Of a stretch of 64,000 bases of DNA, positions 13,586 to 28,238 are shown one piece after another. Source of the stretch: Spirochaeta africana DSM 8902 (lineage in GTDB: Bacteria > Spirochaetota > Spirochaetia > DSM-27196 > DSM-8902); assembly GCF_000242595.2 (NCBI RefSeq), contig NC_017098.1, positions 868,001-932,000 on the forward strand. Reading direction: 5' to 3'. Under the pieces are notes generated by a model. It had not been told where the DNA came from, ran no database searches, and saw only the letters and a list, made by a program, of their open reading frames with translations. Both the position numbers and the translations under genes were made by a program. How positions within the stretch are numbered: position 1 is the first letter of the stretch; every line of letters begins with the position of its first letter.

Positions 13586-14926
13586 GGTAGTGTCAAATAT
13601 CTTGCGCAAATTCAGCGTCCATCAATCTGTGACCCTGCTGTTATGATGCCTGATGATCGTGATCGTACTCGATCATCAGATCCATATTCAGATATTTCCG
13701 TTCACTCCATGTTGAGTTCGAGATGTGGCGCAGTCGTGCTGCAACCAGCATCAGTGCTGACTCACCATCAGGGAACGAACCGATTACACGTGTCCTCCTT
13801 CTGATTTCTCGCATGATTCTTTCAAGCCCGTTATTGGTCCTGATCCGTTTCCAGTGTTCGACCGGGAAATAATAATACGAGAAGGTTTCTAATGCACCTT
13901 CTCGAACGATCTCCGCTGCTTTGGACAATTTCATTTCAATCAGTTTCTTCGCAATCTGGTCTTTCTTTCGGACTGCCTCTTCCAGGTTTTCCTGGGCATG
14001 AATGGCCTTCAACATGGTTGCAACAGCTTTGACTTTTCCCTGCGGAACAAAGCTGAATACATTGCGGTAAAAATGCACTACGCACCGCTGCCACCGGGAA
14101 TCAGGAAAAAACTCTGGTATCGCTTCTACCAATCCCAGAGACTTGTCAGAGATAAACATCTCCACTGTTTCCAGTCCCCGGCCTTTCAAATAGCGGAGAA
14201 ATCGCTGCCAGCTGTCTTTGTCTTCCTTGGTGCCTTCGGCAACCCCGATTATCTCCCTGAAACCATCCTGATTAACGCCTATGGCTACCAGAACGGATAC
14301 ATTGCGTACTTCACCAGCCCAGGATCGTTTCATCCAGATGCCATCAAGGTAGACATAGGTGTAGCGCTGCTTCAACGGCAGGTTGCGCCATTTTTCAATT
14401 TCTTCGTAGATTTTCTTATTGAGGTTGCTGATAGTTCCTGGTGAGACCTTGGCACCCCAAAGGGCTTCGGTGATATCCTCGACACGTCTGACAGAAACGC
14501 CAGCCAAGTACATCTCTACCATTGCCTCCTCAACAGAGATCTCGCGTCGCTTATACCGTTCAATAATGGCAGTTTCAAACGTCACCTTCTTCAGCTTGGG
14601 AACCTGCAGATTCACTTCGCCTGCTTTCGTTAGCAGTTTCCTATCATAATGTCCGGCACGATACCCCGTTCGCTCAGAGCTGCGCTCATGTTTTTGCGCA
14701 TTACACAGCTGTTCTGCTTCTGCCTCCAGCATAGCGTTCAAGGTTTCCTCCACCGTCTCCCTGACAAAATTACCCAAATGGTCTTTGACTTCCTGCTCGT
14801 TTATCTCGATAATCTTACCCATGGGGTCCTCCTTCTGACTTGGTTTGGGTCGTACTTAATCAATCGTCAGATTGAGGACTTTCTTTTTATCGAAACTTGA
14901 AATTGCGCAAGATATTATACGTTATC
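13586..14926 (-). mobile_element. IS256-family insertion sequence (IS-1 of this window), 1,341 bp
   Basis: Ends are defined by imperfect terminal inverted repeats of about 29 bp. Both contain AATATCTTGCGCAA, and about 23 of 29 positions agree when the right end is reversed. The element is flanked by an 8-bp duplication GAAAAAAT. It carries one transposase gene and lies inside a HEPN toxin gene in the opposite orientation to it. The sharp target duplication and intact transposase suggest a fairly recent insertion. Confidence 0.85.
13641..14822 (-). CDS. IS256-family (mutator type) transposase
   Basis: A 393-residue transposase. Mutator-type DDE features: YVYLDGIWMKRS with the first Asp, ETVEMFISDKSLGLVEAIPEFFPDSRWQRCVVHFYRNV with the second Asp and the C/H motif, and the Glu region NNGLERIMREIRRRTRVIGSFPDGESALML. 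GGAGG lies just before the ATG. It is only distantly related to the second IS256-type transposase at 24365-25561, so these are two different elements and not copies. Confidence 0.93.
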   Translation of the reverse strand: MGKIIEINEQEVKDHLGNFVRETVEETLNAMLEAEAEQLCNAQKHERSSERTGYRAGHYDRKLLTKAGEVNLQVPKLKKVTFETAIIERYKRREISVEEAMVEMYLAGVSVRRVEDITEALWGAKVSPGTISNLNKKIYEEIEKWRNLPLKQRYTYVYLDGIWMKRSWAGEVRNVSVLVAIGVNQDGFREIIGVAEGTKEDKDSWQRFLRYLKGRGLETVEMFISDKSLGLVEAIPEFFPDSRWQRCVVHFYRNVFSFVPQGKVKAVATMLKAIHAQENLEEAVRKKDQIAKKLIEMKLSKAAEIVREGALETFSYYYFPVEHWKRIRTNNGLERIMREIRRRTRVIGSFPDGESALMLVAARLRHISNSTWSERKYLNMDLMIEYDHDHQAS

Positions 14927-15225
14927 GAAAAAATTCTACTGTTGTTGTTGGGTGAAAGCCGTATGCAATCATCACCAACCTGGCATGCCGATCTACTTGC
15001 GGAATCCAAATCCCGGGGATGCATTACCGAAGATCTGTATATGCACTTAGCAGCTTTTCTCGGATTTCGGCACTTTGTAAGACACGCATACAGTTTCGAA
15101 ATCAAAAATGAACCTGTTGAAGCGGTCCTCGATAGCGTGAAGACGGTCGTTGAAGACTTCAAGCGTGAAATAACCGCGGTGCAGTGATTCGTAAGAGCTA
15201 ATAGCACTCCGGGATCACAAAATTC

Positions 15226-15390
15226 CCAACTATGAGAAAACCTGTAGAAAATCACCAGAAAAACCTGCATAATACGCGGAAACCCTGCTGATTCTGAATA
15301 AAGGAAAATTTCCAAGTGTCCACTGTAGCAGGAATTAGCTAATCCCTGCTAAAACTCCGGTGTCCAGGCATACCGTTTTTTTTATGCCCG
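15226..15390. repeat. Interspersed repeat, copy A (165 bp)
   Basis: Starts CCAACTATGAGAAAACC and runs to ATGCCCG; a 163-bp copy with a few small differences lies at 25854-26016. Each copy sits directly after a HEPN gene: copy A begins about 39 bases after one stop codon, copy B covers the other stop. There is no open reading frame in it. Its last part is the sequence shared with the 42-bp island boundary repeats. Confidence 0.85.
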
Positions 15391-15396
15391 GACACC
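15359..15396. other. Imperfect hairpin at the end of repeat copy A
   Basis: GGTGTCCAGGCATA (15359-15372) pairs with TATGCCCGGACACC (15383-15396) with one mismatch; the T-run lies in the loop rather than after the stem, so this is not a normal terminator. It could be a recombination or transcript-processing structure. Confidence 0.5.
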
Positions 15397-15479
15397 AACT
15401 CGATAATCAAATAATTGTACGGGTGGTGTTGATTATTCCGTTATAAATTATAAATATATAATACAATCAATCGAACAGG

Positions 15480-15533
15480 AAAAGCGAAAAATTTAAAAAA
15501 AAACTTGACAATCTGTTTTTTTTTTTTTAGTGT
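15480..15533 (+). promoter_or_regulatory. Promoter of the peptide cluster with a 13-T spacer tract
   Basis: A-rich stretch (15481-15503, UP-element-like), perfect -35 box TTGACA at 15505-15510, spacer of 17 bp containing 13 consecutive T (15516-15528), and a weak -10 candidate TAGTGT at 15528-15533. The ATG at 15540 follows after six bases. The T-tract sits where slippage would change the spacer length, a classic set-up for on/off phase variation. The upstream gap (15391-15480) is very AT-rich and holds no gene. Confidence 0.6.
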
Positions 15534-15539
15534 GTCCAT

Positions 15540-17111
15540 ATGAGGGTGTTGCTGGTTACCTGCGAAGACCCTGGAAACCCATTAGGAGGAATGGGAGTCT
15601 TTATTCGAGAGTTTTCGCAGACGCTGAAAACACAATGCGAGGTAAAAGTCCTGCTGGTGGAGACTAATCAGGGCCAAGAAGTGTCTCCGCTGGTAGATTA
15701 TGTTGTTCGACCTGATGTCGGTATTTCTGTAACGAACAGTGAAGCTGTGTTACTGTCTGGTGCCCATTCAGCATATACAAAAGTAATGAAGGCGCTGGAT
15801 GGCTGGTGCCCTGATATCATACACTGCAACGATAGGCAAACCTATTTGCCATTTCTGTATTGCGAAAATGTGGTTTTTTCGCTGCACCTAAGCTTGCCGG
15901 ATCTGTTTGGGTTTCGGAACCTGGATGATAGATGGTTTCTGGAGATGAAGATTGAGAAGGCAGCTGCCAAGCACGCTCGGGCATTCTGTGTCTATTCTTC
16001 ATATTACCAGAATCGAGTTCTCGATAACCTTAGTCAGTATGCCTCTCCTGTCTGTCTGCCGCTGGGTATCCACCCGGAACACTATTATTCGCAGAAAAGC
16101 CGCAACAAGAAGGTCATTAGTTTCTTTGGTCGGCTGGTACAATATCAGAAAGGAGCGGATACCTTTCTGGATGCTGTAAAACGATTTTCGCCGGAATACT
16201 TGAAGGAGTATGCCGTCGAGTTCAAGCTGTTCGGGAAGACGAAAGAGCCAGAGCGTTTTCAGCATCCAAATATCGATTCTATACAGTTTGTTGATGGGGC
16301 TGGTAAATATGCTGCCTATGCCGAAACTGATATTGTAGTCATGCCCAGCACCTATGAGCCTTTTGGGTTGGTTGGTATCGAAGCTATCGCATCCGGGTGC
16401 CTGTTGCTAGCGCCAGAGGGGCTGGGTATGGATGAATACCTCCAGTCGGGAAAGAATTTTCTGCCAATACAGTCCAGTGCTGACAGTATTTATTCGACGC
16501 TTGATAGTCTTATTCGCGACTGGGATAATGTGAGGCAGTTCCAACAAACGGCTCAGGAGACTGTACAGCACTGGACATGGAAGCGCAGTGTGCAGAAGCA
16601 TCTGGAAATCTATCGTGCCGTACTTTCTGGTCGTATAAATCATTACCAGGCAGTTAATTCTTCTCTCGCAAGGGATGTCCTGACATGGCGAGAACAGGAA
16701 TTGGAAACACGGACCTCGCTGGAGCAGGTTAAAAAAGCATTAAATATGTCCGTTGGCTCCGTGCTGCTAATCGGTGCAGAACACAACCAAGGTGGTCAGG
16801 TGGCGGTGTACACTGGGTTGGCTGAGCATTTGCCGTATGCAGATTATTCGTTCGATACGGTTGTGGCACTCCATGAAATTGAATACGGAGTAGATGTCCA
16901 GCTTGCTCTGGCTGAGATCTCGCGGGTGGCTGAATCCAGCATTCTACTGGCGATAACCATTGGTTCTGCAAAAATACACCAGGTTTTTCAGTTCAATTCG
17001 GTTTCGGACGTGGAGGAACAGCTTGCACCGCTGTCCAACTCATGGGAGTGGTCGACAGATCAGCAGCACGACGTTGTATGGGTCAAGCTAAAACGAGTTG
17101 CCTGTACCTAA
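15540..17111 (+). CDS. GT4 glycosyltransferase with C-terminal methyltransferase-like domain
   Basis: A 523-residue protein. Residues 1-360 form a GT-B fold of family GT4: PLGGMGVFIREF near the N-terminus, PDIIHCNDRQTYLP, FFGRLVQYQKGADTFLDA and the donor-site EPFGLVGIEAIASG (E-x7-E). After a short helical linker, residues of about 400-520 resemble the class I SAM methyltransferase pattern (VGSVLLIGAE, LPYADYSFDTVVALHEIEYG). The usual DxGxG glycine motif is degenerate (LIGAEHNQGG). It leads the cluster containing two double-glycine peptides and their exporter, so it may decorate those peptides with a sugar. A role in surface polysaccharide is the main alternative. Confidence 0.78.
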   Translation: MRVLLVTCEDPGNPLGGMGVFIREFSQTLKTQCEVKVLLVETNQGQEVSPLVDYVVRPDVGISVTNSEAVLLSGAHSAYTKVMKALDGWCPDIIHCNDRQTYLPFLYCENVVFSLHLSLPDLFGFRNLDDRWFLEMKIEKAAAKHARAFCVYSSYYQNRVLDNLSQYASPVCLPLGIHPEHYYSQKSRNKKVISFFGRLVQYQKGADTFLDAVKRFSPEYLKEYAVEFKLFGKTKEPERFQHPNIDSIQFVDGAGKYAAYAETDIVVMPSTYEPFGLVGIEAIASGCLLLAPEGLGMDEYLQSGKNFLPIQSSADSIYSTLDSLIRDWDNVRQFQQTAQETVQHWTWKRSVQKHLEIYRAVLSGRINHYQAVNSSLARDVLTWREQELETRTSLEQVKKALNMSVGSVLLIGAEHNQGGQVAVYTGLAEHLPYADYSFDTVVALHEIEYGVDVQLALAEISRVAESSILLAITIGSAKIHQVFQFNSVSDVEEQLAPLSNSWEWSTDQQHDVVWVKLKRVACT

Positions 17112-17220
17112 GGATTCGGATGGACAAGCAAAGGAGAATGCTGCAGCATCACGATGAAATAGGATTTAAAACATGCTGGCGCGCGACGGCATGAAAAACA
17201 AAAAGCATGGAGGTTTCAAC

Positions 17221-17343
17221 ATGAAAAAGGTAATTACTGGATTTCAAGAAGTTCAGGATCGAGAACGGCTTATGATTGAAGGGGGGTATGCCGGTTTTTG
17301 GAATGCGGGGTGGGACTATCAATTTCCCTCTCATCTGCTGTAA
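17221..17343 (+). CDS. Double-glycine leader peptide 1 (putative bacteriocin/RiPP precursor)
   Basis: A 40-residue gene with GGAGG at 17209-17213, seven bases before the ATG. Residues 1-22 form a charged leader (with FQEVQDRE) ending in IEGG. Cleavage after GG would release an 18-residue core, YAGFWNAGWDYQFPSHLL, which is rich in aromatic residues and has no Cys. The leader matches that of the next gene at the same positions: F8-Q9-E10, D13, I/V19-E20-G21-G22 and then Tyr23. The downstream C39-peptidase ABC exporter is the expected processing and export machine. Function of the core is unknown: an antibacterial peptide, a signal or a surface-acting peptide are all possible. Confidence 0.8.
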   Translation: MKKVITGFQEVQDRERLMIEGGYAGFWNAGWDYQFPSHLL

Positions 17344-17370
17344 TCCATAATGAGTCGACAGGAGGTATTT

Positions 17371-17499
17371 ATGGTTCAAATTCATAAGCATTTCCAAGAA
17401 ATTGAAGACATTGAACTGTTTTGCGTTGAAGGCGGTTATGGTTCGGGATGTCAACGCTACGGAGTCCCGTGTCACCGACTTCCTATTGGTGTAATATAG
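17371..17499 (+). CDS. Double-glycine leader peptide 2 (putative bacteriocin/RiPP precursor)
   Basis: A 42-residue gene with AGGAGG at 17360-17365, five bases before the ATG. The 22-residue leader contains FQEIEDIE and ends in VEGG; the core is YGSGCQRYGV followed by PCHRLPIGVI. The core has two Cys six residues apart that could form a disulfide or thioether, and it shares only the first Tyr with core 1. Similar leaders with different cores are what is expected of a two-peptide product or of two separate products served by one exporter. No immunity gene is obvious. Confidence 0.82.
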   Translation: MVQIHKHFQEIEDIELFCVEGGYGSGCQRYGVPCHRLPIGVI

Positions 17500-17592
17500 G
17501 AATAAATTTGGATTGATATATCAATTATTTCTACAAGTCTAGACGGAGATGGCACTTGATCTATGTGCATCCAACTCGTCTGGGTTGTATGT

Positions 17593-17634
17593 GTGTCTCC
17601 TGTATATGAACAAAGTATACAGGAGACACTGTTT
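17593..17634 (+). terminator. Strong hairpin after the peptide genes (terminator or attenuator)
   Basis: Perfect 14-bp arms (17593-17606 and 17616-17629, GTGTCTCCTGTATA and its complement), a 9-base loop and a short T-run. It lies between the peptide genes and the hydrolase/exporter genes, so it probably gives more peptide mRNA than downstream mRNA. The rest of 17500-17661 is AT-rich and non-coding. Confidence 0.75.
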
Positions 17635-17661
17635 TAAGCACGTCAAATGGAGCTGAGTGTC

Positions 17662-19029
17662 ATGAAAGCAATCTTTATCGTTCTTGCGTATTTTTATTTA
17701 TCGGGATGTAGTACTTACGATTTGAAAATCGACGCCCCCGACAACTCACGGATTGATGAAAAAATTATTCTCTCAATCCATGGGAGTGAATCCGGTGAAA
17801 AAGTCGAGGTACAGTTTCAAACTGCGGATAACAATGGAGATCTCTGGCAGTCAAGGGCGACATTCAGCGCTAATGAAAACGGGATTGTCGATTTTGGCTC
17901 CGCGGCCCCTCAGTCAGGCAGTTATTCCGGAGTTGATCCCATGGGGATGTTCTGGTCTATGGAACCGATTGAAGATAATCACCAGACTATAACATACCAA
18001 CCGCCTGAATCGGGTATGGAAGTAGATATTTCTGTTCAATCTGAATCGGGAGCTAGAGGCAGGGCAACGATTTCTCGCAGTGTAGGCGAACATTCAATCC
18101 AGATCGATTGGGTCTCTGAAAATGGTGTGGTTGGAGCCTTGTTTTCACCAGAGACTGACAGTGACACGGTTCTCCCTGGAATAATTCTGCTGCATGGGCG
18201 ACCGGCATCTTTTCTATACACAGAACCTTTGGTGTTGGCCGGGCATGGCTATCGTGTGTTTGCGCCAATGTATCTGCAGCCACCCCGTGCTCGTCAGATT
18301 GCTGCTGCTTTGGAGCTGGATGGATTGTTGGATCTACCGGTAACATTGGAAGCACGCCCGATTGAGTATGTTCAGGATGCTATCGATTGGCTGCGGGCTC
18401 GGCCGGATGTAGCATCAGAATCTGTAGCAGTCGGTGGGTTCTCCGCCGGAGCAGAGCTGGCACTCATAGCTGGTGAGTATCTTGATGGCATCAACACCAT
18501 AATCAGCTGGAATGGCCCAGGGGTAAAGAGTGCTGCCTTTGTTGATGACGGCAGACGTGTAGATGAATCCGCTTGGAGTTTTGAAGGGAATCCCTTACCG
18601 TATCTCCGTGCCGGACAGATGGATGTAGTGGAGACCGCTATCAACAATTCTCAGCGTGGTGATTCCGATATGGACTTGGTTACAATATGGGAACATGTTT
18701 CGAATATGGTGCCGGAGCAGGCTCGGATACAGGTGGATAAAGCTAATGCGCCGGTGCTGCTTATCTCCGGAAAAGACGACCTTATGGTTAAGGGGTTTGT
18801 GCTGCAGGAAGGTGTTAATCAATCCTTGAAGGATATTGGGTACGACAGACCACATGAGCATCTCGCGTATCAGGATGCTGGCCACTGGTTTAGTGTGCCT
18901 TATATACCTGCCTGGGTCGATGTAGGTCGTGCTGCTTCGATCGGCCGCCCTCCAGGAGGCACAATGGAAGGAAATGCCGCCGCAGCGGCAGATTCCTGGC
19001 CTAATGTTCTTAAATATCTTCAAAAATAA
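17662..19029 (+). CDS. BAAT-type alpha/beta hydrolase lipoprotein
   Basis: About 455 residues from the ATG at 17662; an in-frame ATG at 17647 also exists. It has a short signal peptide with lipobox YLSGC (Cys16). An N-terminal beta domain resembles the acyl-CoA thioesterase/BAAT N-terminal region (SGSYSGVDPMGMFWSMEP). An alpha/beta hydrolase domain follows, with nucleophile GGFSAGAE (about Ser261), acid in ISGKDDLM and His in DAGHWFS. All three catalytic residues are present. Related cytoplasmic enzymes cleave or transfer acyl groups from CoA, but this one would be outside the inner membrane. In this cluster it may acylate or deacylate the exported peptides, or protect the producer; this is inference. 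Confidence 0.75.
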   Translation: MKAIFIVLAYFYLSGCSTYDLKIDAPDNSRIDEKIILSIHGSESGEKVEVQFQTADNNGDLWQSRATFSANENGIVDFGSAAPQSGSYSGVDPMGMFWSMEPIEDNHQTITYQPPESGMEVDISVQSESGARGRATISRSVGEHSIQIDWVSENGVVGALFSPETDSDTVLPGIILLHGRPASFLYTEPLVLAGHGYRVFAPMYLQPPRARQIAAALELDGLLDLPVTLEARPIEYVQDAIDWLRARPDVASESVAVGGFSAGAELALIAGEYLDGINTIISWNGPGVKSAAFVDDGRRVDESAWSFEGNPLPYLRAGQMDVVETAINNSQRGDSDMDLVTIWEHVSNMVPEQARIQVDKANAPVLLISGKDDLMVKGFVLQEGVNQSLKDIGYDRPHEHLAYQDAGHWFSVPYIPAWVDVGRAASIGRPPGGTMEGNAAAAADSWPNVLKYLQK

Positions 19030-19040
19030 TAATTAAGCAT

Positions 19041-21179
19041 ATGAAAGTATTGCTACAGAGTGACTCATCGGACTGTGGGCCAGCATGTATTGCGATGGTG
19101 TGTCGGCGATTTGGAAAAAAGATATCCTTAGAGAGAGCAAGGGCTATTGCGGGGACTGATAAAGCAGGAACCAATCTTAAAGGTATTGCTACTCTGGCTG
19201 AATATGTAAACCTGGATGCCAAAGTAGTGAAGGGTGATCATGATGCTCTTGGACCAGAATTGCCTGTACCTTTTATAGCTCACATTCATCGTAAAGGGTA
19301 CCACTATGTCGTGGTGTACAAGGTAACTCGCAAACATATATACATTGCGGATCCAGCTCGTGGAAAAATAAAATTTACTTATGGAAATTTTTCTTACTAT
19401 TGGACCGGGTATGCAGTATTCCTCTCTCCCTGCGATTCTTTTAAAAAATCAAAAAATACTGATATATCACTATTTAAATTCATTCCAATTCTGCAAGCGC
19501 ATAAAAGTACTATCTTTCTTACAGTGCTGGTATCTGTAGTAATTACTATTTTTGGAATTGCCGCGGCACAATACTTTCGATTTCTTATAGATGAAGTTCT
19601 TTTTATTCAGTCTCGAAACTTGTTGCACACAATATCTTTCGGCGTTGTTTTTATCGTTTTATTGCAATCAGTATTGACGGCTATCAGATCACATATGCTG
19701 CTTGTTTTTAGTTCAAAAGTTGATATTAGCTTAAATTTAGCTTTTTTTCATCACGTGCTGAAGTTGCCGCTTTCATTTTTTGATTCTAGAAAAGTTGGCG
19801 AAGTTATCTCCCGAGTAATTGAAACAGCAAGGATACGCGAAGCACTTTCAACTGCTACGTTTACTATATTCTTTGACACAATGATGGTGGTGGTTATTGG
19901 ATTGGTTTTGTTTTTACATAACCCAATACTTTTTTTTCTTGTATTTGCCTTTGTTCCTCTATCAAGTGTTATCGTATGGGGCTTCTCTCGACCCTTTAAA
20001 AGACATTATCAAGACATGTTTTATCAAATTGCCGAGAACAGAGCAATGTTAGTCGAGCTCGTTTCAGGTATGGCTACCATAAAGGGGCATACTGCCGAGC
20101 AAGAAAGTTTTAACAAAATTGAAGAAAAATTTGTAGATTCAATATGGCCATTATATAAAATTGGTGTGCTACGCAATGTTCAGCAAATTTTTACTGATTT
20201 AATTGACGGCTGGGGCGGCAAGCTGCTGTTCTGGATCGGCAGTGTGCTGATTCTGGACGGGGTTATCTCGCTGGGACAGCTTATTGCCTTCAACGCCCTG
20301 CTTGGCTACTTTCTTGGTCCATTGCAGAACCTCATTAATCTGCAGCCCAGTCTGCAGGAGGCCTTTGTGGCTGCCCGGCGTGTCGGGGAGATTCTCGACC
20401 TCGAGGTGGAGCAGCAGGAGGACAGGGCATTACTGAAGCCAGAGCGGGTTATTGGCCCGATCGATTTTCGCAACGTATACTTTCGCTATGGGACCAAAAA
20501 GCTGGTATTAAAGGACATATCGTTTCATGTACCGGCTGGAGACTCGGTGGGAATTGTCGGGCCAAGCGGCAGCGGCAAGTCCTCGCTCATCAAGCTGTTA
20601 ATGAAGTTTTACACCCCGGAGGAGGGCAGTATTACCATCGACGGGGCAGACATGCGGGATATCGACAGCACCTGGCTGCGGCAGAAGATCGGCTATGTCA
20701 GTCAGGATATCTTTCTGTTTCACGGATCAATCCGCGATAACATCGCCCTTGGCAGGCCGGATGCCGAGTTTGCCGACATAGTCGAGGCCGCCAAAAAAGC
20801 GCAGGCCCATGATTTTATCGCCGAGATGCCGGCACGCTACGACAGCGAACTGTCCGAGCAGGGCTCCAGCCTGTCCGGCGGGGAGCGGCAGCGGTTGGCG
20901 ATTGCCCGCGCCTTGCTGGGCCAGCCGGATATCATTGTGTTTGATGAGGCTACCAGTAACCTTGATACCTTCAGTGAGTCGGAGCTGCAGGATACCATCT
21001 GGCGGCTCAAGGACGACGGGGTGACGGTGTTTATTGTCGCCCACCGGCTGACCACGGTAACCCACTGTGACACCATCCTCGTGCTGGACGGCGGAGAGAT
21101 AATCGAACGGGGCAATCATGCTTCACTGGTGGCACAGGGCGGGCGCTACGCCCAGCTATGGGAGCGGCATACCGGATGA
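19041..21179 (+). CDS. Peptidase-containing ABC exporter (C39 peptidase, PCAT)
   Basis: 712 residues with the full bacteriocin-exporter layout. A C39 peptidase domain comes first (1-135), with catalytic Cys in SSDCGPAC, His in GYHYVVVY and Asp in IADPARG. Six membrane helices follow (about 150-430). The ATPase domain is last (about 465-712), with Walker A GPSGSGKSS, signature LSGGERQRLAIARALL and Walker B IIVFDEATSNLD. An intact peptidase means it should cut double-glycine leaders during export. The first 1,160 bases are AT-rich like the island, whereas from about 20,205 onward the gene has host-like GC content, so it looks like a mosaic. Confidence 0.95.
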   Translation: MKVLLQSDSSDCGPACIAMVCRRFGKKISLERARAIAGTDKAGTNLKGIATLAEYVNLDAKVVKGDHDALGPELPVPFIAHIHRKGYHYVVVYKVTRKHIYIADPARGKIKFTYGNFSYYWTGYAVFLSPCDSFKKSKNTDISLFKFIPILQAHKSTIFLTVLVSVVITIFGIAAAQYFRFLIDEVLFIQSRNLLHTISFGVVFIVLLQSVLTAIRSHMLLVFSSKVDISLNLAFFHHVLKLPLSFFDSRKVGEVISRVIETARIREALSTATFTIFFDTMMVVVIGLVLFLHNPILFFLVFAFVPLSSVIVWGFSRPFKRHYQDMFYQIAENRAMLVELVSGMATIKGHTAEQESFNKIEEKFVDSIWPLYKIGVLRNVQQIFTDLIDGWGGKLLFWIGSVLILDGVISLGQLIAFNALLGYFLGPLQNLINLQPSLQEAFVAARRVGEILDLEVEQQEDRALLKPERVIGPIDFRNVYFRYGTKKLVLKDISFHVPAGDSVGIVGPSGSGKSSLIKLLMKFYTPEEGSITIDGADMRDIDSTWLRQKIGYVSQDIFLFHGSIRDNIALGRPDAEFADIVEAAKKAQAHDFIAEMPARYDSELSEQGSSLSGGERQRLAIARALLGQPDIIVFDEATSNLDTFSESELQDTIWRLKDDGVTVFIVAHRLTTVTHCDTILVLDGGEIIERGNHASLVAQGGRYAQLWERHTG

Positions 21180-22324
21180 ACTTTCAACCCGTTCCTGCCA
21201 ACAAGTTGCGCCACTCGGCGGTCTTTTTCTCACTCTCGGTTCCTACCGGTGCTCTGGTGTTTCTCTGGGTGTTGCTGCTCGCTCTTGCCGGTGGGGCAGT
21301 CTATTCAGTGTTCGGCAGCATTGACGAGTGGGCGCGCGGCACGGCCATGCTGCGACCGTTGGTGGAGGTTGCCGAGGTTCGCAACGAGACTTCCGGCCGG
21401 GTGAGCAGGCGACCAGTTGAGCATGGCCAGCATGTGGCAGCCGGGCAGACTCTGTGGGTAATTGATACCGAGGTGATCGAGGCCGAGATTGCCGGGCTTG
21501 AGACTGAACACACGCGTACGCAACAGGAGCTTGCTGAACAACAGGCAGTTGTTGCAAGCCTGCAGGCAGGCGAGAATCAGGTGCCGCCAGAGCTGGAGAA
21601 TGCCTCCCGACAGGTTGATCTGCTGTTGCTGGAACACACCAGACTGCAGCTGCAGACCGAAGATGCTCGCCGCGCCTGGCAGCGCGAGGATCAAGCTCCG
21701 ACTAGTCTGCGCCGCAGCGATCGGGTGGAGGAGCTGGAGCGGAGTTATCGCATGCAGCGGCTGTCCCTGGATGGCTTTCTCCCGCAGGAGCTGGTGTCGC
21801 GCACCGAGCGTATTCGTACCCTCGAATCGCGACTCAATGAGATCCAGCAGTCTCTGACAGCTTCACGCAAGCGATTGTCAGAATCGCATGTTGTTGCTCC
21901 AGTAGACGGTACAGTCGAGCTGGTGCGGGATTTCTCGACAGGAGCTTTTGTTGGAGCGGGCGAGGAGCTGATGCGTGTAGTGCCGCAGCTGTCTGATCGC
22001 TTTCGGCTCATCGTAGAGGTACCCGAGCGCGAGGCTGCCGAGGTTTCGGAAGGGCAGCAGATTGTGCTGCGGTTCTCCGGCTTCCCGGTTGCCGAGTACG
22101 GTTCGGCCTATGCCGAGGTTGCCTATGTGCCGCAGGATGCCGAGCAGGGTGCAGATGGACAGCCGGTGTACCGGGTACGTGCCGAGCTTGCACGCACCTA
22201 TCTGACCGACCGCGACGGGCGAAACTTTCCCCTGCGACCCGGGATGACCGCTAATGCGCGGATCATCACCAGAACCACCCCGATCTACCGCTATATCCTG
22301 CGTAAAATGGATATCCGCACATGA
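21176..22324 (+). CDS. HlyD-type membrane fusion protein
   Basis: About 382 residues from the ATG at 21176, which overlaps the exporter stop (ATGA) with GGGAGCGG upstream. One N-terminal membrane helix (about 20-45) is followed by a lipoyl-type half motif (VRNETSGRVSRRPVEHGQHV), a long coiled coil (about 105-225), the second lipoyl half (SHVVAPVDGTVELVRDFSTG) and a beta-barrel domain. It would bridge the ABC exporter and the outer membrane channel encoded next, as in type I secretion. Confidence 0.92.
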   Translation: MNFQPVPANKLRHSAVFFSLSVPTGALVFLWVLLLALAGGAVYSVFGSIDEWARGTAMLRPLVEVAEVRNETSGRVSRRPVEHGQHVAAGQTLWVIDTEVIEAEIAGLETEHTRTQQELAEQQAVVASLQAGENQVPPELENASRQVDLLLLEHTRLQLQTEDARRAWQREDQAPTSLRRSDRVEELERSYRMQRLSLDGFLPQELVSRTERIRTLESRLNEIQQSLTASRKRLSESHVVAPVDGTVELVRDFSTGAFVGAGEELMRVVPQLSDRFRLIVEVPEREAAEVSEGQQIVLRFSGFPVAEYGSAYAEVAYVPQDAEQGADGQPVYRVRAELARTYLTDRDGRNFPLRPGMTANARIITRTTPIYRYILRKMDIRT

Positions 22325-23733
22325 TCTCGCGCCTGGTACCTGCTGCACTTCTTGGATGCCTCGTCTCATTGTCCGTGACCGGACTGGAAAACAGCCTTGA
22401 GCAGCTGTTGGTCGGTTCGCAACGCCTGGAGGAAACCCGGTTGCAGCGCGAGATCGCCCGCATCGGGGCTGACGAAATCGGTGTCGACCGGCTGCCGGAG
22501 CTGTATCTGCAGGCACCCTCTGCGTACAGAATCGACATCCCTCCGGAAGGAGATCACTCCTGGCAGGCACAGCTTGGTGTTCGCCAGCAGCTGCCCTTTG
22601 GTATCGCAAGCGATGTCAGTTGGCAGCATGGGCTGCGGCACCGTGAGTCGGAATTCATCGAGGCCACTGAGTTCAGCGATGAAGAGAAAATCCCCGGAGG
22701 GTTTATGCACTCACTGTCGGCAGAGGCAGGACTCACGGTTCCTTTGTATGTCAGCCGCTACTGGAATCTTCCTTCCGTGCAGCGGACCACGGCACATGAC
22801 CGCGCAGCAGCAGCACACACTCGCGACCGTACCCGACTCATACGGGAATTCCTGGCTGACTGGTTTTCACTGTATCGAAATTATTTAGAAGTCAAGCAAG
22901 CCCGCCAGCACGAGGTGTTTGCCCTTTCTGCCGTGGAACTGCAAGAGCAGCTTATTGAACGCGGCGAACGAGCTGTGCATACCTTGTGGGAGTATCAGCG
23001 ATCTGCGCATGAAGCAGAGCGTGAGCGTATACAGCGTGAGCATGCCTATGATCGCGCCACTGAACAGATGCACGTGCGACATGGCATTGAGTTCCCTGAA
23101 AATCCCGAACTGCCCGACTCCCGGTTCTCGTGGCAGTACTATGGCATCTCCCCTTTGTACCCAACCGAACACAGAGTAATGCAGCTGGACAGTAAGACAG
23201 AAGAACTGTCGTACCAGCGTTCACGGCAAGGTTCTGCTCCCCGGCTGTCTCTTTCTTTCTCGCTTGCCGGACCAACGCAGGAAACTGCCGGTGACATACG
23301 CGAAGGGTTTACCGATCAATTCGGCGATTGGGATGACTGGAGCCCGTCATTGTCTGTCGGTTTTTCACTGTCAAGCAGGGATGTGCAGTCGGCTGCCCGT
23401 GACAGCCAACGCCACCGCCTGTCGGCACATCTGACTGTACTGGAAACCAGCCATCGCCTGCAGCAGCACGAGACTGATATTAATCATCTGATCACACTGC
23501 GAGACAACTACGCCCGACTGTATCAGCGGGAATCCGAGGCAGTGCAGAATATGCAGCGTTACTATAGCGATGTCCTTCAGCAGCACGAACGCGGCGAGAT
23601 CGACACCCGCACACTGCAGGAAATACAGCTGTCCCTGTCCGACATGCAAACCGCGCTCAGCCTAACCGAATCTCATCTGCAGGAAACCCGGCTGGAACTG
23701 GAGTTGTTGGCAGGTGGGCCTATAGACAGATAA
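22321..23733 (+). CDS. TolC-like outer membrane channel protein
   Basis: A 470-residue protein with a short signal peptide and two halves of long alpha-helical coiled-coil segments separated by beta stretches (SLSAEAGLTVPLYVSRYW; LSLSFSLAGP; SPSLSVGFSLSS). This is the pattern of outer membrane efflux proteins, although the sequence is divergent. The ATG overlaps the HlyD stop (ATGA). It completes a tripartite secretion route for the two small peptides. It is the last gene of the operon; a new promoter for the second MNT-HEPN pair starts 15 bases downstream. Confidence 0.85.
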   Translation: MISRLVPAALLGCLVSLSVTGLENSLEQLLVGSQRLEETRLQREIARIGADEIGVDRLPELYLQAPSAYRIDIPPEGDHSWQAQLGVRQQLPFGIASDVSWQHGLRHRESEFIEATEFSDEEKIPGGFMHSLSAEAGLTVPLYVSRYWNLPSVQRTTAHDRAAAAHTRDRTRLIREFLADWFSLYRNYLEVKQARQHEVFALSAVELQEQLIERGERAVHTLWEYQRSAHEAERERIQREHAYDRATEQMHVRHGIEFPENPELPDSRFSWQYYGISPLYPTEHRVMQLDSKTEELSYQRSRQGSAPRLSLSFSLAGPTQETAGDIREGFTDQFGDWDDWSPSLSVGFSLSSRDVQSAARDSQRHRLSAHLTVLETSHRLQQHETDINHLITLRDNYARLYQRESEAVQNMQRYYSDVLQQHERGEIDTRTLQEIQLSLSDMQTALSLTESHLQETRLELELLAGGPIDR

Positions 23734-23747
23734 CCGTGTGTGTCGGG

Positions 23748-23776
23748 TTGCGCACCAGCGGTACTCCACCTATACT
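23748..23776 (+). promoter_or_regulatory. Promoter of the second MNT-HEPN module
   Basis: TTGCGC at 23748-23753, 17-bp spacer, TATACT at 23771-23776, and ATG at 23783 six bases further on. Spacing and lack of leader are the same as at the first MNT-HEPN module. Confidence 0.6.
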
Positions 23777-23782
23777 TGCTGT

Positions 23783-24100
23783 ATGGTAACCGAACAGACA
23801 ATGTCGGACATAGTAACTACCATTCTGAATCTGACTTCACCAAAGAAAGTAATTCTGTTTGGCAGTTACGCCAGAAAAACCATGTTGGCCGATAGTGATA
23901 TCGACTTGATGGTCATCGTGTCTGATGACGTAGCTGACGTTCGATCATTGACAGCCGATCTACACATCGCACTGAGCCGTATTGTCGATGTACCATGTGA
24001 CCTCCTGGTCGAGCGGGAGTCAGTTTTTGTGGCACGTGGAGCTCTACCTACTCTGGAACATACAATTTTGCAGGAGGGCTATACCCTGTATGCAGCTTAA
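23783..24100 (+). CDS. MNT-type nucleotidyltransferase (antitoxin, second pair)
   Basis: About 105 residues from the ATG at 23783; an alternative start is ATG 23801. The signature VILFGSYARKTMLADSDIDLMV contains both catalytic Asp residues, and CDLLVERES follows later. Its stop overlaps the start of the HEPN gene at 24090, with GGAGG at 24073-24077 for that gene. It is a different subfamily from the first MNT protein, which argues for separate acquisition and not a local duplication. Confidence 0.87.
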   Translation: MVTEQTMSDIVTTILNLTSPKKVILFGSYARKTMLADSDIDLMVIVSDDVADVRSLTADLHIALSRIVDVPCDLLVERESVFVARGALPTLEHTILQEGYTLYAA

Positions 24101-24267
24101 AAACCTGGTGGGTGAATGGCAGGAGAAGTCCAGGAATGATATCCTTTCTGCGCGGTTCCTGGTCAATATGCGGCCGATGCCTGTTGAGGTTATCGGCTTC
24201 CATGCTCAGCAGGCAGTAGAAAAGCTTTTCAAAGCAGTATTGGTTTTGCACTCAATCAGTCCACAAA

Positions 24268-25616
24268 GATAGTGTCCTGAAACGTTCGCAATTTGAAAAG
24301 TAAAAGGAGCCATTGGATCCTCCGAAAGGTGTAGTAGCCAAACCATACCAAAGGAGAACACACAATGGCCCCACTCAAAGCTACCGCAGATTTCGAGAAA
24401 CTTCTATCCCGTTTCATAGGTGAACAGGATCCTCTGCTTGAAATGCTCAAATGGATGACCGAACAGCTCATGCGCATTGAAGCTGAAAATAAAGCCGGTG
24501 CCGTGAAAGGCAAGCATGTCGCAAATCGGACGACTCATTTCAGCGGTTCTCGTGTCAGAAGATTCGATACCCGTCTGGGCACCATGTACCTCGTCGTTCC
24601 AAAGCTGCGCAAGGGCGGGTACATTCCCTTTTTTGTAACCGAGAAGAAACGCTCGGAACAAGCACTCCTACAGGTAGTGCAGGAAGCATTTATCAATGGT
24701 GTTTCTACCCGTAAGATCGATCGCCTCGCCAAGGAGCTGGGGATTGAATCCATATCGGCCAGCCAGGTCTCTGAAATTAATAAGGGGCTGGATGAACAGG
24801 TTCAGCAATTTCGCAACCGAGAGCTGGATTCAGAATATCCAGTTATCTGGATTGATGCACTGTATGAAAAGATACGCCATGGCCAGAGAGTGCAGAATGA
24901 AGCAGTGATGGTGGTCTGTGGCCTTAATTCTGCTGGAGAGCGCGAAATACTTGCTATAGAGCCCATGGAAACTGAATCAGAGGAAACATACGCCGACCTG
25001 TTTCAGCGCTTAAAACAGCGCGGTCTCAAGCATGTATGGCTTGTGGTATCAGATGCACACCAGGGATTGAAAAATGCAATCCGATCAGAATTTGTCGGCG
25101 CATGTTGGCAACGGTGTAAAGTGCATTTCATGCGGAATGTCCTCGCCAAAGTACGCAGCAAACACAAGGAACAATTTGCAGAGCGATTAAAGCACATCTG
25201 GCTGCAGCCAGATCAAGCTACCGCGCGAAAATACGCCAAGCAGCTTATGGATGACTGGGAAGACTCTTGCTCTGATGCAGTCGAAATCCTGGATTCCGGA
25301 CTTGATGACTCACTGCAGTTCTATGCCTTTGCAAAAATCGATGCACGGAAAATCTCCTCCACCAATATGCTGGAGCGATTGAACAAAGAAATCCGTCGAC
25401 GATCAAAGGTGGTTGGCGTCTTTCCGTCCAGGGAGTCATACATCAGAATGGTCACCTGCTATCTGATAGAATACACCGAAGACTGGACAACCGGCAGATC
25501 GTACATTAAAAAGGAATCACTGGATGAACAGAAAGAATTCATCCTGAGAACGGTTGCGTAACCAGCCGGAGGCTGATGGCTCCAGGGTGAAATTGCAAAC
25601 ACGTTTGGACACTATC
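24268..25616 (+). mobile_element. IS256-family insertion sequence (IS-2), 1,349 bp
   Basis: Terminal inverted repeats begin GATAGTGTCC at both ends and agree at about 22 of 29 positions, ending in GCAATTT. The flanking 8-bp target duplication is TCCACAAA. One transposase gene fills the element. It lies in the same orientation as the HEPN gene that it interrupts. Confidence 0.9.
24365..25561 (+). CDS. IS256-family (mutator type) transposase
   Basis: A 398-residue transposase with the mutator DDE pattern: YPVIWIDALYEKIR, LKHVWLVVSDAHQGLKNAI with CWQRCKVHFMRNVL, and SSTNMLERLNKEIRRRSKVVGVFPSRESYIRMV carrying the Glu. AAGGAG precedes the ATG at 24365. It looks intact, so the element could still be active. 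Confidence 0.95.
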   Translation: MAPLKATADFEKLLSRFIGEQDPLLEMLKWMTEQLMRIEAENKAGAVKGKHVANRTTHFSGSRVRRFDTRLGTMYLVVPKLRKGGYIPFFVTEKKRSEQALLQVVQEAFINGVSTRKIDRLAKELGIESISASQVSEINKGLDEQVQQFRNRELDSEYPVIWIDALYEKIRHGQRVQNEAVMVVCGLNSAGEREILAIEPMETESEETYADLFQRLKQRGLKHVWLVVSDAHQGLKNAIRSEFVGACWQRCKVHFMRNVLAKVRSKHKEQFAERLKHIWLQPDQATARKYAKQLMDDWEDSCSDAVEILDSGLDDSLQFYAFAKIDARKISSTNMLERLNKEIRRRSKVVGVFPSRESYIRMVTCYLIEYTEDWTTGRSYIKKESLDEQKEFILRTVA

Positions 25617-25853
25617 TCCACAAAAAACCCATGATTTATTGTACCTGTACAAAATGTGTCGGAGTCACACCGATATTCAGATCGATTGCGAAGCAGTGTG
25701 TGCCCGATTGAATCCCTATTCTGTCAATCATCGTTATCCGGGGGAGGTCTCTGTCTCATCCAGTCAGGTGCTTGAGGATTTACAGGACGCAGAGTCTGTC
25801 TGTGCTCAGACACAAGCCTATCTGGATTCAAAAATCACCGGACTCCAGGCGGA

Positions 25854-26016
25854 CCAACTATGAGAAAACCTGTAGAAATCACCAGAAAAACCTGCATAAT
25901 ACGCGGAAATCCTGCTGATTCTGAATAAAGAAAAATTTCCAAGTGTCCACTGTACGGGAAATTAGCTAATTCCTGCTAAAACTCCCTTGTCCAGGCATAC
26001 CGTTTTTTTATGCCCG
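25854..26016. repeat. Interspersed repeat, copy B (163 bp)
   Basis: Near-identical to 15226-15390, with single-base differences and small indels. It covers the stop codon of the second HEPN gene and runs into the right 42-bp boundary repeat. No gene is seen in 25864-26174 apart from this repeat and the promoter region of the next lipoprotein. Confidence 0.85.
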
Positions 26017-26174: not shown

Positions 26175-28238
26175 TTGAAAAAGACCAAGATCGGCGTAAT
26201 GTTTGCATCCATACTTTTCGTATTGTTCTGGCTCATAAGCTGCAGCAATCCCCTGGGTAATGATGGTTCTACTGGAGGTTCTTCAGCAACTACCGGCACA
26301 GATGCCGGGGGTGGCTCAGTCGCGTCCGTTACCATCAGCTTCGTGCTGGATACGGATACGGGCGATGGCTTCACCCTGTCTACGAACCACTCAGCCCCGG
26401 TACCGATTACCGTGGCTGCTGGTGCTCCGGTGCGCTTGACCCAGGGGATCGGATTTACCGCCGAGGCAGTAGGGGCAGGCCCTGGCGGGAGTTCGGTGAC
26501 CTTCCACGCATCGGGCTGGTCAACCGAATCCTATAGTAGCCAGTTCCAGAAGATTATGAATCCCGGGGGACCGGCGCCGTCCGGCCCAGGCTATTATCTG
26601 CCAGGCTTCGAGGCAAGCTTTTCCGAAGACACCACGCTCTATATGCGATGGCTGCCGGCGTTAGACAATATTGCAGCGCAGGTGACCTTTGTCGAGCCAG
26701 GAAGCGGCACAGCGACCGTGACCGGACCCGTTTTGCACCTTCGTGACGTACTTCCATTTGAGCGCACGGCCTATTTTCAGGATGCCGTTCCGGCTCCGTG
26801 GAGTGTCAACCCAAACGAGCGCGTTTGGGAATGGGAAAGTGAAACGGTTTCCTACTCACGAACTGCCAATAACCCGCCTGCCGGTACCCCTGCAGTGTGG
26901 CAGTTTGCGTTCAACAATATAACGGAATATAACAACGCTATAGCTTCTGCTTCTGCAGGCAAGCGCCCAGTGAGCATTAGCTACACACCACGGGAAGTGT
27001 ACACCATTACCTTCGATCCCAACGGTGGAGCCATGCCCGGTAGTGCAGTCACTCGCGATGCATTTGAGGGCATAACTATTGCCAGTAATCTTGGCTGGTG
27101 GAACATGAGCAGCGCGACACAGCTGCCTGAACCCACACGGGGTGATCTGATTTTCGGTGGCGACTGGTTCTTTGCCCCAGACTACGTTGGCGACGATTGG
27201 TTTAGCAACCCGACAGCAAATACCACACTGTACGCTCGGTGGCAGGCGGAAATTACCTTCGATGGTAATGGAGGGGGTGCACCTGCGCCGGTACTTACCA
27301 ATGTGACCCCCGCTGGCGTAGCTGTGGTTACCGAGGCCCCGGCGATAAGTACCTCTCGCCCTCAACACGATGTTTTTGGTGGTTGGTTTACCGAGCAGGG
27401 TCCTGGTCCGGAATACGTTGTCTCGCACAAGGTTTCCACAGGAGAAAACAGCCAGGATCCATTTACCATTGACTCTGTGACGGGACCCCTGACCCTGTAT
27501 GCCGGCTGGATTCCGAAGTATGAAATTGGTGAAGTACTGCCAGACAATCAAGGTATTATCTTCCATATCCTTGGGGGCAGTGAGCCGCAGAGAACACGTG
27601 CTCACACGAATGCACTTGAGGACGCCGGTTTCGCGGCAGGCAACACTGGCTGGCGTTTTCTGGCGGTGGCACCAGTCGAAGAACCTGAGGATACGGTCCA
27701 GGCACCAAATTTTAATCCGGGTTGGTTAGCATCAGGAGTAGACCCGAATCTCGTCTTTACGACCGATCCAGGAGAAGGTAATGCCGCCCATGGAAAGTTC
27801 GACCTCCTGAAGACTTTCGATGTGTTAGGGGGTGGCCGACCTTCCACGGCAGAAGTTGTCGCCTGGGCAGATGGCGGCGAATCGGTAGCACGGCAAGCCC
27901 GAGAATCAGACATCGGGGGACTCAAGCCAGGCACTATTACAGATCTCAATGCGGTCTGGTACTTGCCGTCAGCGGCTGAGTTGATCGAGATAGCCAATGC
28001 TCGCACTTCTGCAGGAACATCCGTTTGGGAAATCGCCGGAATGAGATTCGGCACAGGCAATACTCGCAGATACTGGACTTCAACTACGTATAATGGAGGA
28101 TATGGTCAGGGAAGCATGGACAGTAACGCTTTCACCGTTCATTTGCCTGACGCAACGTCAACACCCCAGGTTGAGACCTTCTCGCGAAGCACGAATGGTA
28201 CGAATACTCCCCGTGTCCGCCCGGTCCGCCGCTTCTAA
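26175..28238 (+). CDS. Large repeat-containing lipoprotein with C-terminal Lcl/DUF1566-like domain
   Basis: 687 residues. A signal peptide with lipobox LISC is followed by a Ser/Gly/Thr-rich spacer. Then come several beta-repeat units of the InlB B-repeat (Listeria-Bacteroides) kind: YTITFDPNGGAMPGSAV, TTLYARWQAEITFDGNGGG, PLTLYAGW. The C-terminal region (about 480-687) has the pattern GWRFLAVAP, WYLPSAAELIEI, YWTSTTY and ends in RPVRRF. The last region resembles the Lcl C-terminal/DUF1566 domain common in spirochete surface lipoproteins. It is probably exposed on the cell surface, and adhesion is a possible role. The start is TTG, set by AAGGAG at 26161-26166; the upstream ATG at 26170 runs into a stop. 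Confidence 0.75.
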   Translation: MKKTKIGVMFASILFVLFWLISCSNPLGNDGSTGGSSATTGTDAGGGSVASVTISFVLDTDTGDGFTLSTNHSAPVPITVAAGAPVRLTQGIGFTAEAVGAGPGGSSVTFHASGWSTESYSSQFQKIMNPGGPAPSGPGYYLPGFEASFSEDTTLYMRWLPALDNIAAQVTFVEPGSGTATVTGPVLHLRDVLPFERTAYFQDAVPAPWSVNPNERVWEWESETVSYSRTANNPPAGTPAVWQFAFNNITEYNNAIASASAGKRPVSISYTPREVYTITFDPNGGAMPGSAVTRDAFEGITIASNLGWWNMSSATQLPEPTRGDLIFGGDWFFAPDYVGDDWFSNPTANTTLYARWQAEITFDGNGGGAPAPVLTNVTPAGVAVVTEAPAISTSRPQHDVFGGWFTEQGPGPEYVVSHKVSTGENSQDPFTIDSVTGPLTLYAGWIPKYEIGEVLPDNQGIIFHILGGSEPQRTRAHTNALEDAGFAAGNTGWRFLAVAPVEEPEDTVQAPNFNPGWLASGVDPNLVFTTDPGEGNAAHGKFDLLKTFDVLGGGRPSTAEVVAWADGGESVARQARESDIGGLKPGTITDLNAVWYLPSAAELIEIANARTSAGTSVWEIAGMRFGTGNTRRYWTSTTYNGGYGQGSMDSNAFTVHLPDATSTPQVETFSRSTNGTNTPRVRPVRRF

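Follow-up and report, generated by a model that had tools for sequence, protein, structure and literature searches.

Two adjacent genes for very small double-glycine peptides beside a GT4 glycosyltransferase gene and the only C39 exporter gene of Spirochaeta africana

Whether two tiny adjacent open reading frames (ORFs) in the genome of Spirochaeta africana DSM 8902 encode secreted peptides, and of what kind, is the question raised by the stretch analysed here, which comprises 64,000 nucleotides of contig NC_017098.1 (positions 868,001 to 932,000, forward strand) and is referred to as the window, with positions counted from its first letter. To our knowledge, hardly any work has been done on the peptides that free-living spirochaetes secrete. 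The two ORFs are explained best, at a rough probability of 0.6, as precursors of a very small secreted peptide pair, class-II-bacteriocin- or microcin-like, which would be cleaved and exported by a C39 exporter and perhaps glycosylated beforehand. The genes were delimited as follows:

17221..17343, + strand: peptide gene 1, 40 aa, with a 22-aa double-glycine (GG) leader (17221-17286) and an 18-aa core, YAGFWNAGWDYQFPSHLL; Shine-Dalgarno (SD) site GGAGG
17371..17499, + strand: peptide gene 2, 42 aa, with a 22-aa GG leader (17371-17436) and a 20-aa core, YGSGCQRYGVPCHRLPIGVI; SD site AGGAGGT

Translation of 17221-17343 (+) gave MKKVITGFQEVQDRERLMIEGGYAGFWNAGWDYQFPSHLL and that of 17371-17499 (+) gave MVQIHKHFQEIEDIELFCVEGGYGSGCQRYGVPCHRLPIGVI, with only 27 nt between the two genes and with GGAGG-type SD sites in front of both (ATGGAGGTTTCAACATG for peptide 1, ACAGGAGGTATTTATG for peptide 2). 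The ORFs of 40 and 42 codons with strong SDs, to which an earlier sequence-only reading had drawn attention, were thus recovered. A mechanical ORF list held longer in-frame starts at 17173 and 17350, both 5' of the SDs; since the SDs fall between these starts and those at 17221 and 17371, the short forms were preferred and the longer starts are considered less likely. The cores are unrelated, as had also been claimed: the 18-aa core of peptide 1 is without Cys, and the 20-aa core of peptide 2 contains two, arranged as one CX6C. Their assignment to no named family held in searches against Pfam and NCBIfam (nothing above cut-off; best PF10439 Bacteriocin_IIc, E 0.15, peptide 2), in a PDB sequence search with the cores, and in tblastn searches, which gave no meaningful match for peptide 1 in phages or for peptide 2 in plasmids. 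An Rfam scan of 15000-19100 gave no match.

The two leaders align gap-free over 23 positions and share FQE at 8-10, D13, (I/V)EGG at 19-22 and Y23, all residues picked out by the sequence-only reading, together with a common E15. For an independent ranking, a gapless BLOSUM profile was built from leaders of other genomes only, window sequences being left out, and applied to all ATG, GTG and TTG codons of the window that have 22 open codons after them (n = 3195; mean −18.6, standard deviation 8.9). Peptide 1 ranked first (45.1) and peptide 2 second (39.4), with the next start context at 17.1. A hidden Markov model (HMM) made from the same outside leaders placed peptide 2 first and peptide 1 second, with E-values (0.4 and 0.66) that are weak because the profile is very short (23 columns); with the window leaders included, E-values of 1.3e-12 and 4.6e-12 were obtained for the window peptides. 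They are the only leaders detected by leader profiles in the 3.286-Mb genome. Nine leader residues after Met are identical between the peptides, with synonymous codon differences at four of them, which points to an old duplication in which the protein motif was conserved.

For C39 peptidases of peptidase-containing ATP-binding cassette (ABC) transporters, the substrate consensus comprises hydrophobic residues at −12, −7 and −4, Glu at −8 and GG at −2/−1 (PMC6363468). Peptide 2 agrees with it in full (I−12, E−8, L−7, V−4, GG) and peptide 1 in part (V−12, E−8, I−4, GG). As the leader positions are occupied as needed in peptide 2, and in peptide 1 except for Arg−7, cleavage after GG and type I export would be expected.

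Gene order, exporter and glycosyltransferase

The peptide genes lie in an intact operon, in which a glycosyltransferase (GT) gene, the two peptide genes, a hairpin, a BAAT-like lipoprotein gene and the three exporter genes C39-ABC, HlyD and OEP follow each other on the same strand. The remaining features are:

15540..17111, + strand: GT4-psiMT, a GT4 glycosyltransferase fused to a degenerate methyltransferase-like tail (aa ~416-465); PF13692 1.2e-16, PF00534, PF08241 5.1e-6
17593..17629, + strand: terminator/attenuator-like hairpin 3' of the peptide genes; perfect 15-bp stem, 7-nt loop, then TGTTTTAA
17647..19029, + strand: BAAT/acyl-CoA thioesterase-like alpha/beta hydrolase, lipobox LSGC; PF04775 7.4e-30, PF08840 5.8e-27
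19041..21179, + strand: C39 peptidase-ABC exporter; PF03412 2.7e-37, TIGR01193 above cut-off
21158..22324, + strand: HlyD-type periplasmic adaptor; PF13437 1.5e-15, TIGR01843 1.6e-45 (below its cut-off)
22321..23733, + strand: OEP outer-membrane factor (TolC-like); PF02321 7.5e-10

The exporter gene that the sequence-only reading had placed 1.5 kb downstream starts 1.54 kb on, at 19041; it is the only C39 gene in the genome, and its C39 domain carries the catalytic residues Q6, C12, H88 and D104. This domain would cut after GG, and the type I complex (C39-ABC/HlyD/OEP) would export YAGFWNAGWDYQFPSHLL and YGSGCQRYGVPCHRLPIGVI, the latter perhaps with a Cys5-Cys12 disulfide. Folding of the hairpin region gave z −4.26 against shuffles, and the hairpin may let peptide mRNA exceed exporter mRNA. 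Before export the precursors may be glycosylated by GT4-psiMT, with Tyr1, the first residue after GG, as candidate sugar site, because no other hydroxyl residue occupies matching positions in the two cores.

The GT matched the folds of the retaining GT4 enzymes GlgM, MshA, BshA and PimA. In its structure model the catalytic half is usable, and the methyltransferase-like tail lies mostly at or below pLDDT ~60, so that the fold of this tail is not established. Its match to PF08241 (Methyltransf_11) covers profile positions 38-88 only, and the tails of two relatives match over 52-90 and 54-89 only; since the part of the profile containing S-adenosylmethionine (SAM) motif I is unmatched, it is doubtful whether this tail transfers methyl groups, and it may have another role such as precursor binding. 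Of the additions to the cores for which the sequence-only reading had proposed to look, that of sugar is plausible, whereas methyl groups find little support in this tail and acyl groups little in the BAAT-like gene, whose product is a predicted lipoprotein (likely start at 17662). As a conserved part of the locus the BAAT-like gene was rejected, a BAAT gene being found near a C39 gene only in the window among nine genomes searched.

Related loci in other spirochaetes

The absence of homologous leaders beside C39 exporters elsewhere had been named by the sequence-only reading as evidence that would speak against it; such leaders were searched for and found in other spirochaetes. A profile of the two window peptides detected them in G191, G285, G203, G126 and G161, each with C39 genes close by. 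A GT4-psiMT profile matched 7 of 393 Spirochaetota genomes, and in each of them a GG-leader ORF and a C39 gene adjoin the GT gene. Of 395 genomes of the class, six have the leader in its strong form (E < 1e-11), and every one of these also carries the GT; in the remaining GT genome, G252, the leader has diverged, though it keeps GGY at its end. At least two further contigs from Treponema metagenome-assembled genomes carry the GT beside C39; on one of them (L034) no leader was seen. When contigs were scanned with the GT alignment, the matches listed outside three spirochaete- or Treponema-labelled contigs were only partial GT4 matches.

In several genomes the GT lies directly 5' of the GG ORF. 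Counted by lineage, Tyr stands at +1 after GG in 10 of 13 leaders in GT loci vs 0 of 13 in GT-less loci, and an aromatic residue in 12 of 13 vs 1 of 13, counts that describe a pattern and not a probability, as the sequences are related and non-independent and the sets come from slightly different searches. This link of the GT to the leader type suggests glycosylation before export. The window peptides fit the family so defined, with a 22-aa leader F8...GG and Tyr at +1, beside GT4-psiMT and C39.

Among the matches listed, the GT nearest to that of the window (37-39%) was found on contig C2 of G285 (L029), where GT, GT, two small GG peptides, C39, HlyD, OEP and a third GG peptide follow each other; the order GT, peptides, C39, HlyD, OEP matches that of the window. 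The cargo is small, Gly-rich and class-II-bacteriocin-like (GGFWDMVCGVASGILGAASPW..., GGWSWAAFTASVVAGGVAGG...). The GG proteins of most GT loci continue after the leader with an S/G/Y-rich stretch and end in a C-terminal domain that is variable, often containing conserved Cys and His, and several of the GG genes are followed by genes for leucine-rich repeat (LRR) or WG-repeat secreted proteins, which looks like an effector-partner pairing. The window leaders are not isolated, being members of a spirochaete leader family with larger cargo elsewhere, and the window peptides are best read as the smallest cargo of this locus series.

In G191 (L024 10926-13529, L025 1-7501), eight tandem GG-leader genes with near-identical leader and linker and differing C-terminal domains are interleaved with LRR and WG-repeat secreted proteins; the arrangement resembles a polymorphic array of effector-partner cassettes with export through C39. 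The GT4-psiMT gene of this genome (2473590-2475170; L024/L025) contains two in-frame TAA stops, yet the eight GG genes persist. Across genomes the effector-like C-terminal types seem to be matched to partner types: a YHCD...DHM type is followed by LRR proteins (L025 1313-1924, L024 11592-12182, L123 14800-15444), and a CD...H NlpC/CHAP-like type by WG-repeat proteins (L025 3217-3873, L121 8804-10015).

Known systems and competing explanations

By its features the window system is a variant of class II GG bacteriocin loci that lacks defining features of glycocins and of pediocin-like peptides. With class IIb two-peptide bacteriocins it shares two adjacent GG peptides with similar leaders, unrelated cores and a C39 exporter; it differs in its cores of 18 and 20 aa, its GT4, the lack of a clear GxxxG helix motif pair and the lack of a recognised immunity gene. 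Glycocins (sublancin, glycocin F, enterocin F4-9) also combine a GG-type leader, which their C39 exporter cleaves off, with a glycosyltransferase gene and, as in peptide 2, CX6C. Their known glycosyltransferases are of the SunS-like GT2 type. In the window enzyme only GT4 domains were found, joined to the methyltransferase-like tail, and the two nested CX6C pairs of glycocins are missing, peptide 1 having no Cys and peptide 2 one CX6C. The core of peptide 2 starts YGSG and has two Cys, superficially like the YGNGVxC of class IIa pediocin-like bacteriocins; in place of the YGNGVxCx4C box, however, it reads YGSGCQRYGVPC, without V, with CX6C instead of CX4C and in 20 aa.

Closest in its exporter is the GG/C39 system of T. 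denticola, which also has a spirochaete C39-ABC and HlyD, GG-leader substrates and neighbouring lipoproteins. TepA2 of T. denticola was reported to be 45% identical to a Spirochaeta africana bacteriocin ABC transporter (PMC4947327), probably the window exporter. The T. denticola GG proteins, related to the window leaders, have already been described (PMC4947327, PMC11879956) and were found in the supernatant by immunoblot (PMC11879956). They carry far larger cargo (about 17 and 66 kDa by calculation), their leader variant and +1 residue differ from those of the window, and GT4-psiMT, present in the window, is listed for neither GT-less Treponema-like genome examined (G126, G161). As far as these papers show, they cover the general spirochaete exporter class and not the GT-linked leader family or the window peptides, and among the papers searched none was found on GT4-linked GG peptides in spirochaetes.

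Several points weigh against a C39-exported, perhaps glycosylated antagonistic pair. Peptide 1 has Arg at −7, where the consensus wants Leu, and cleavage by LahT150 was strongly impaired by L−7K or L−7D (PMC6363468). At the related loci examined the cargo is longer than the window cores, no small immunity family was recognised between the peptides and the exporter, where only the BAAT-like lipoprotein is encoded, and the +1 counts carry the restriction given with them. The GT could act elsewhere than on the peptides. In T. denticola, supernatant that contained related GG proteins did not kill bacteria (PMC11879956), a caution against assuming killing; the detection of these proteins there supports secretion.

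The likeliest role is still that of a class-II-bacteriocin/microcin-like antagonistic pair, in view of the small, Gly-rich, bacteriocin-like cargo at the most closely related locus (G285 C2); signalling is ranked second. That the exported peptides are pheromones and not killing agents appears unlikely, even though GG/C39 export is also used for pheromones such as competence-stimulating peptide (CSP), very short cores would suit a signal, no immunity gene is evident and the related T. denticola proteins were without bactericidal effect (PMC11879956): two unrelated cores would be unusual for one signal, and the features of ComC/CSP were not found, with no PF03047 (ComC) match in the peptides and neither a histidine kinase nor a response regulator among the neighbours scanned. 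It is rather improbable that the ORFs are functionless stubs of longer GG effector proteins (leader, S/G/Y linker and C-terminal domain) that have lost their cargo. GG proteins of 80-400 aa in other loci, the insertion sequences (IS) flanking the window locus and, in G191, a 77-aa linker-only ORF beside the GT with two in-frame stops, from which truncation is seen to occur in the leader family, would agree with such a loss; each window ORF, however, has its own SD and stop, with the short spacing between them and a strong terminator after, the leader motif is conserved despite synonymous change, and GT, C39, HlyD and OEP are all intact in a genome with no other leader found. As for chance frames that go untranslated, their extreme shortness is outweighed by the first two places among 3195 starts when scored with an outside profile, by the strong SDs and by synteny with GG loci, leaving this explanation a very small probability.

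What the GT acts on is a separate matter. It may, as a tentative but serious possibility, make a glycolipid or surface glycan while the peptides are exported unmodified, as its nearest solved folds act on small molecules or lipids and the window cores have few Ser/Thr; this is opposed by the GT gene tracking the leader family, directly before the GG ORF in several genomes, and by the other +1 residues of C39 loci without GT. An as yet undescribed spirochaete class of ribosomal glycopeptides, in which GT4-psiMT, guided by the FQE...GG leader, would glycosylate Tyr1 or nearby hydroxyls before C39 export and of which the window peptides would be the smallest members known, is doubtful. If the pair is indeed secreted as proposed, the locus offers two peptides that are easy to synthesise, together with a defined exporter and a candidate for a tailoring enzyme, perhaps the first glycosyltransferase of GT4 type to be connected with GG-peptide export; it is also linked to a wider set of spirochaete loci in which, apparently, cargo of anything from 18 residues to effector-like proteins is exchanged behind a common leader.

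Origin and flanks of the locus

Across 13-21 kb of the window, GC content drops from about 0.60 to 0.37-0.52. Within the C39-ABC gene (19041-21179), third-position GC jumps near 20240, being ~0.3 over the peptidase and the greater part of the membrane domain and ~0.7 over the ATPase, which suggests a mosaic gene with a break at this point. The GC dip and this jump make it look as though the front part of the locus, with the peptide genes, was acquired and became joined to an exporter end richer in GC. A repeat bounds the region:

15226..15382, + strand: left copy of a ~160-bp direct repeat flanking the region
25854..26009, + strand: right copy, 93% identical to the left copy

These are the only near-full copies in the genome, and with the IS elements around the region they fit an acquired origin. 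The locus is flanked by two different Mutator-type (IS256-like) insertion sequences in opposite orientation (13596-14916 and 24267-25617); a composite transposon of identical IS copies was rejected, the two Mutator-type transposases having different inverted repeats. Directly 3' of the OEP gene lies a gene for an MNT-type nucleotidyltransferase (23738-24100), whose putative HEPN partner (23982-24294) is truncated at an IS element's inverted repeat (24267), so that 23738-24294 is a probable broken MNT-HEPN toxin-antitoxin pair. Beside the right direct repeat, an ORF of 687 aa (26175-28238) gave a weak List_Bact/Flg_new repeat match.
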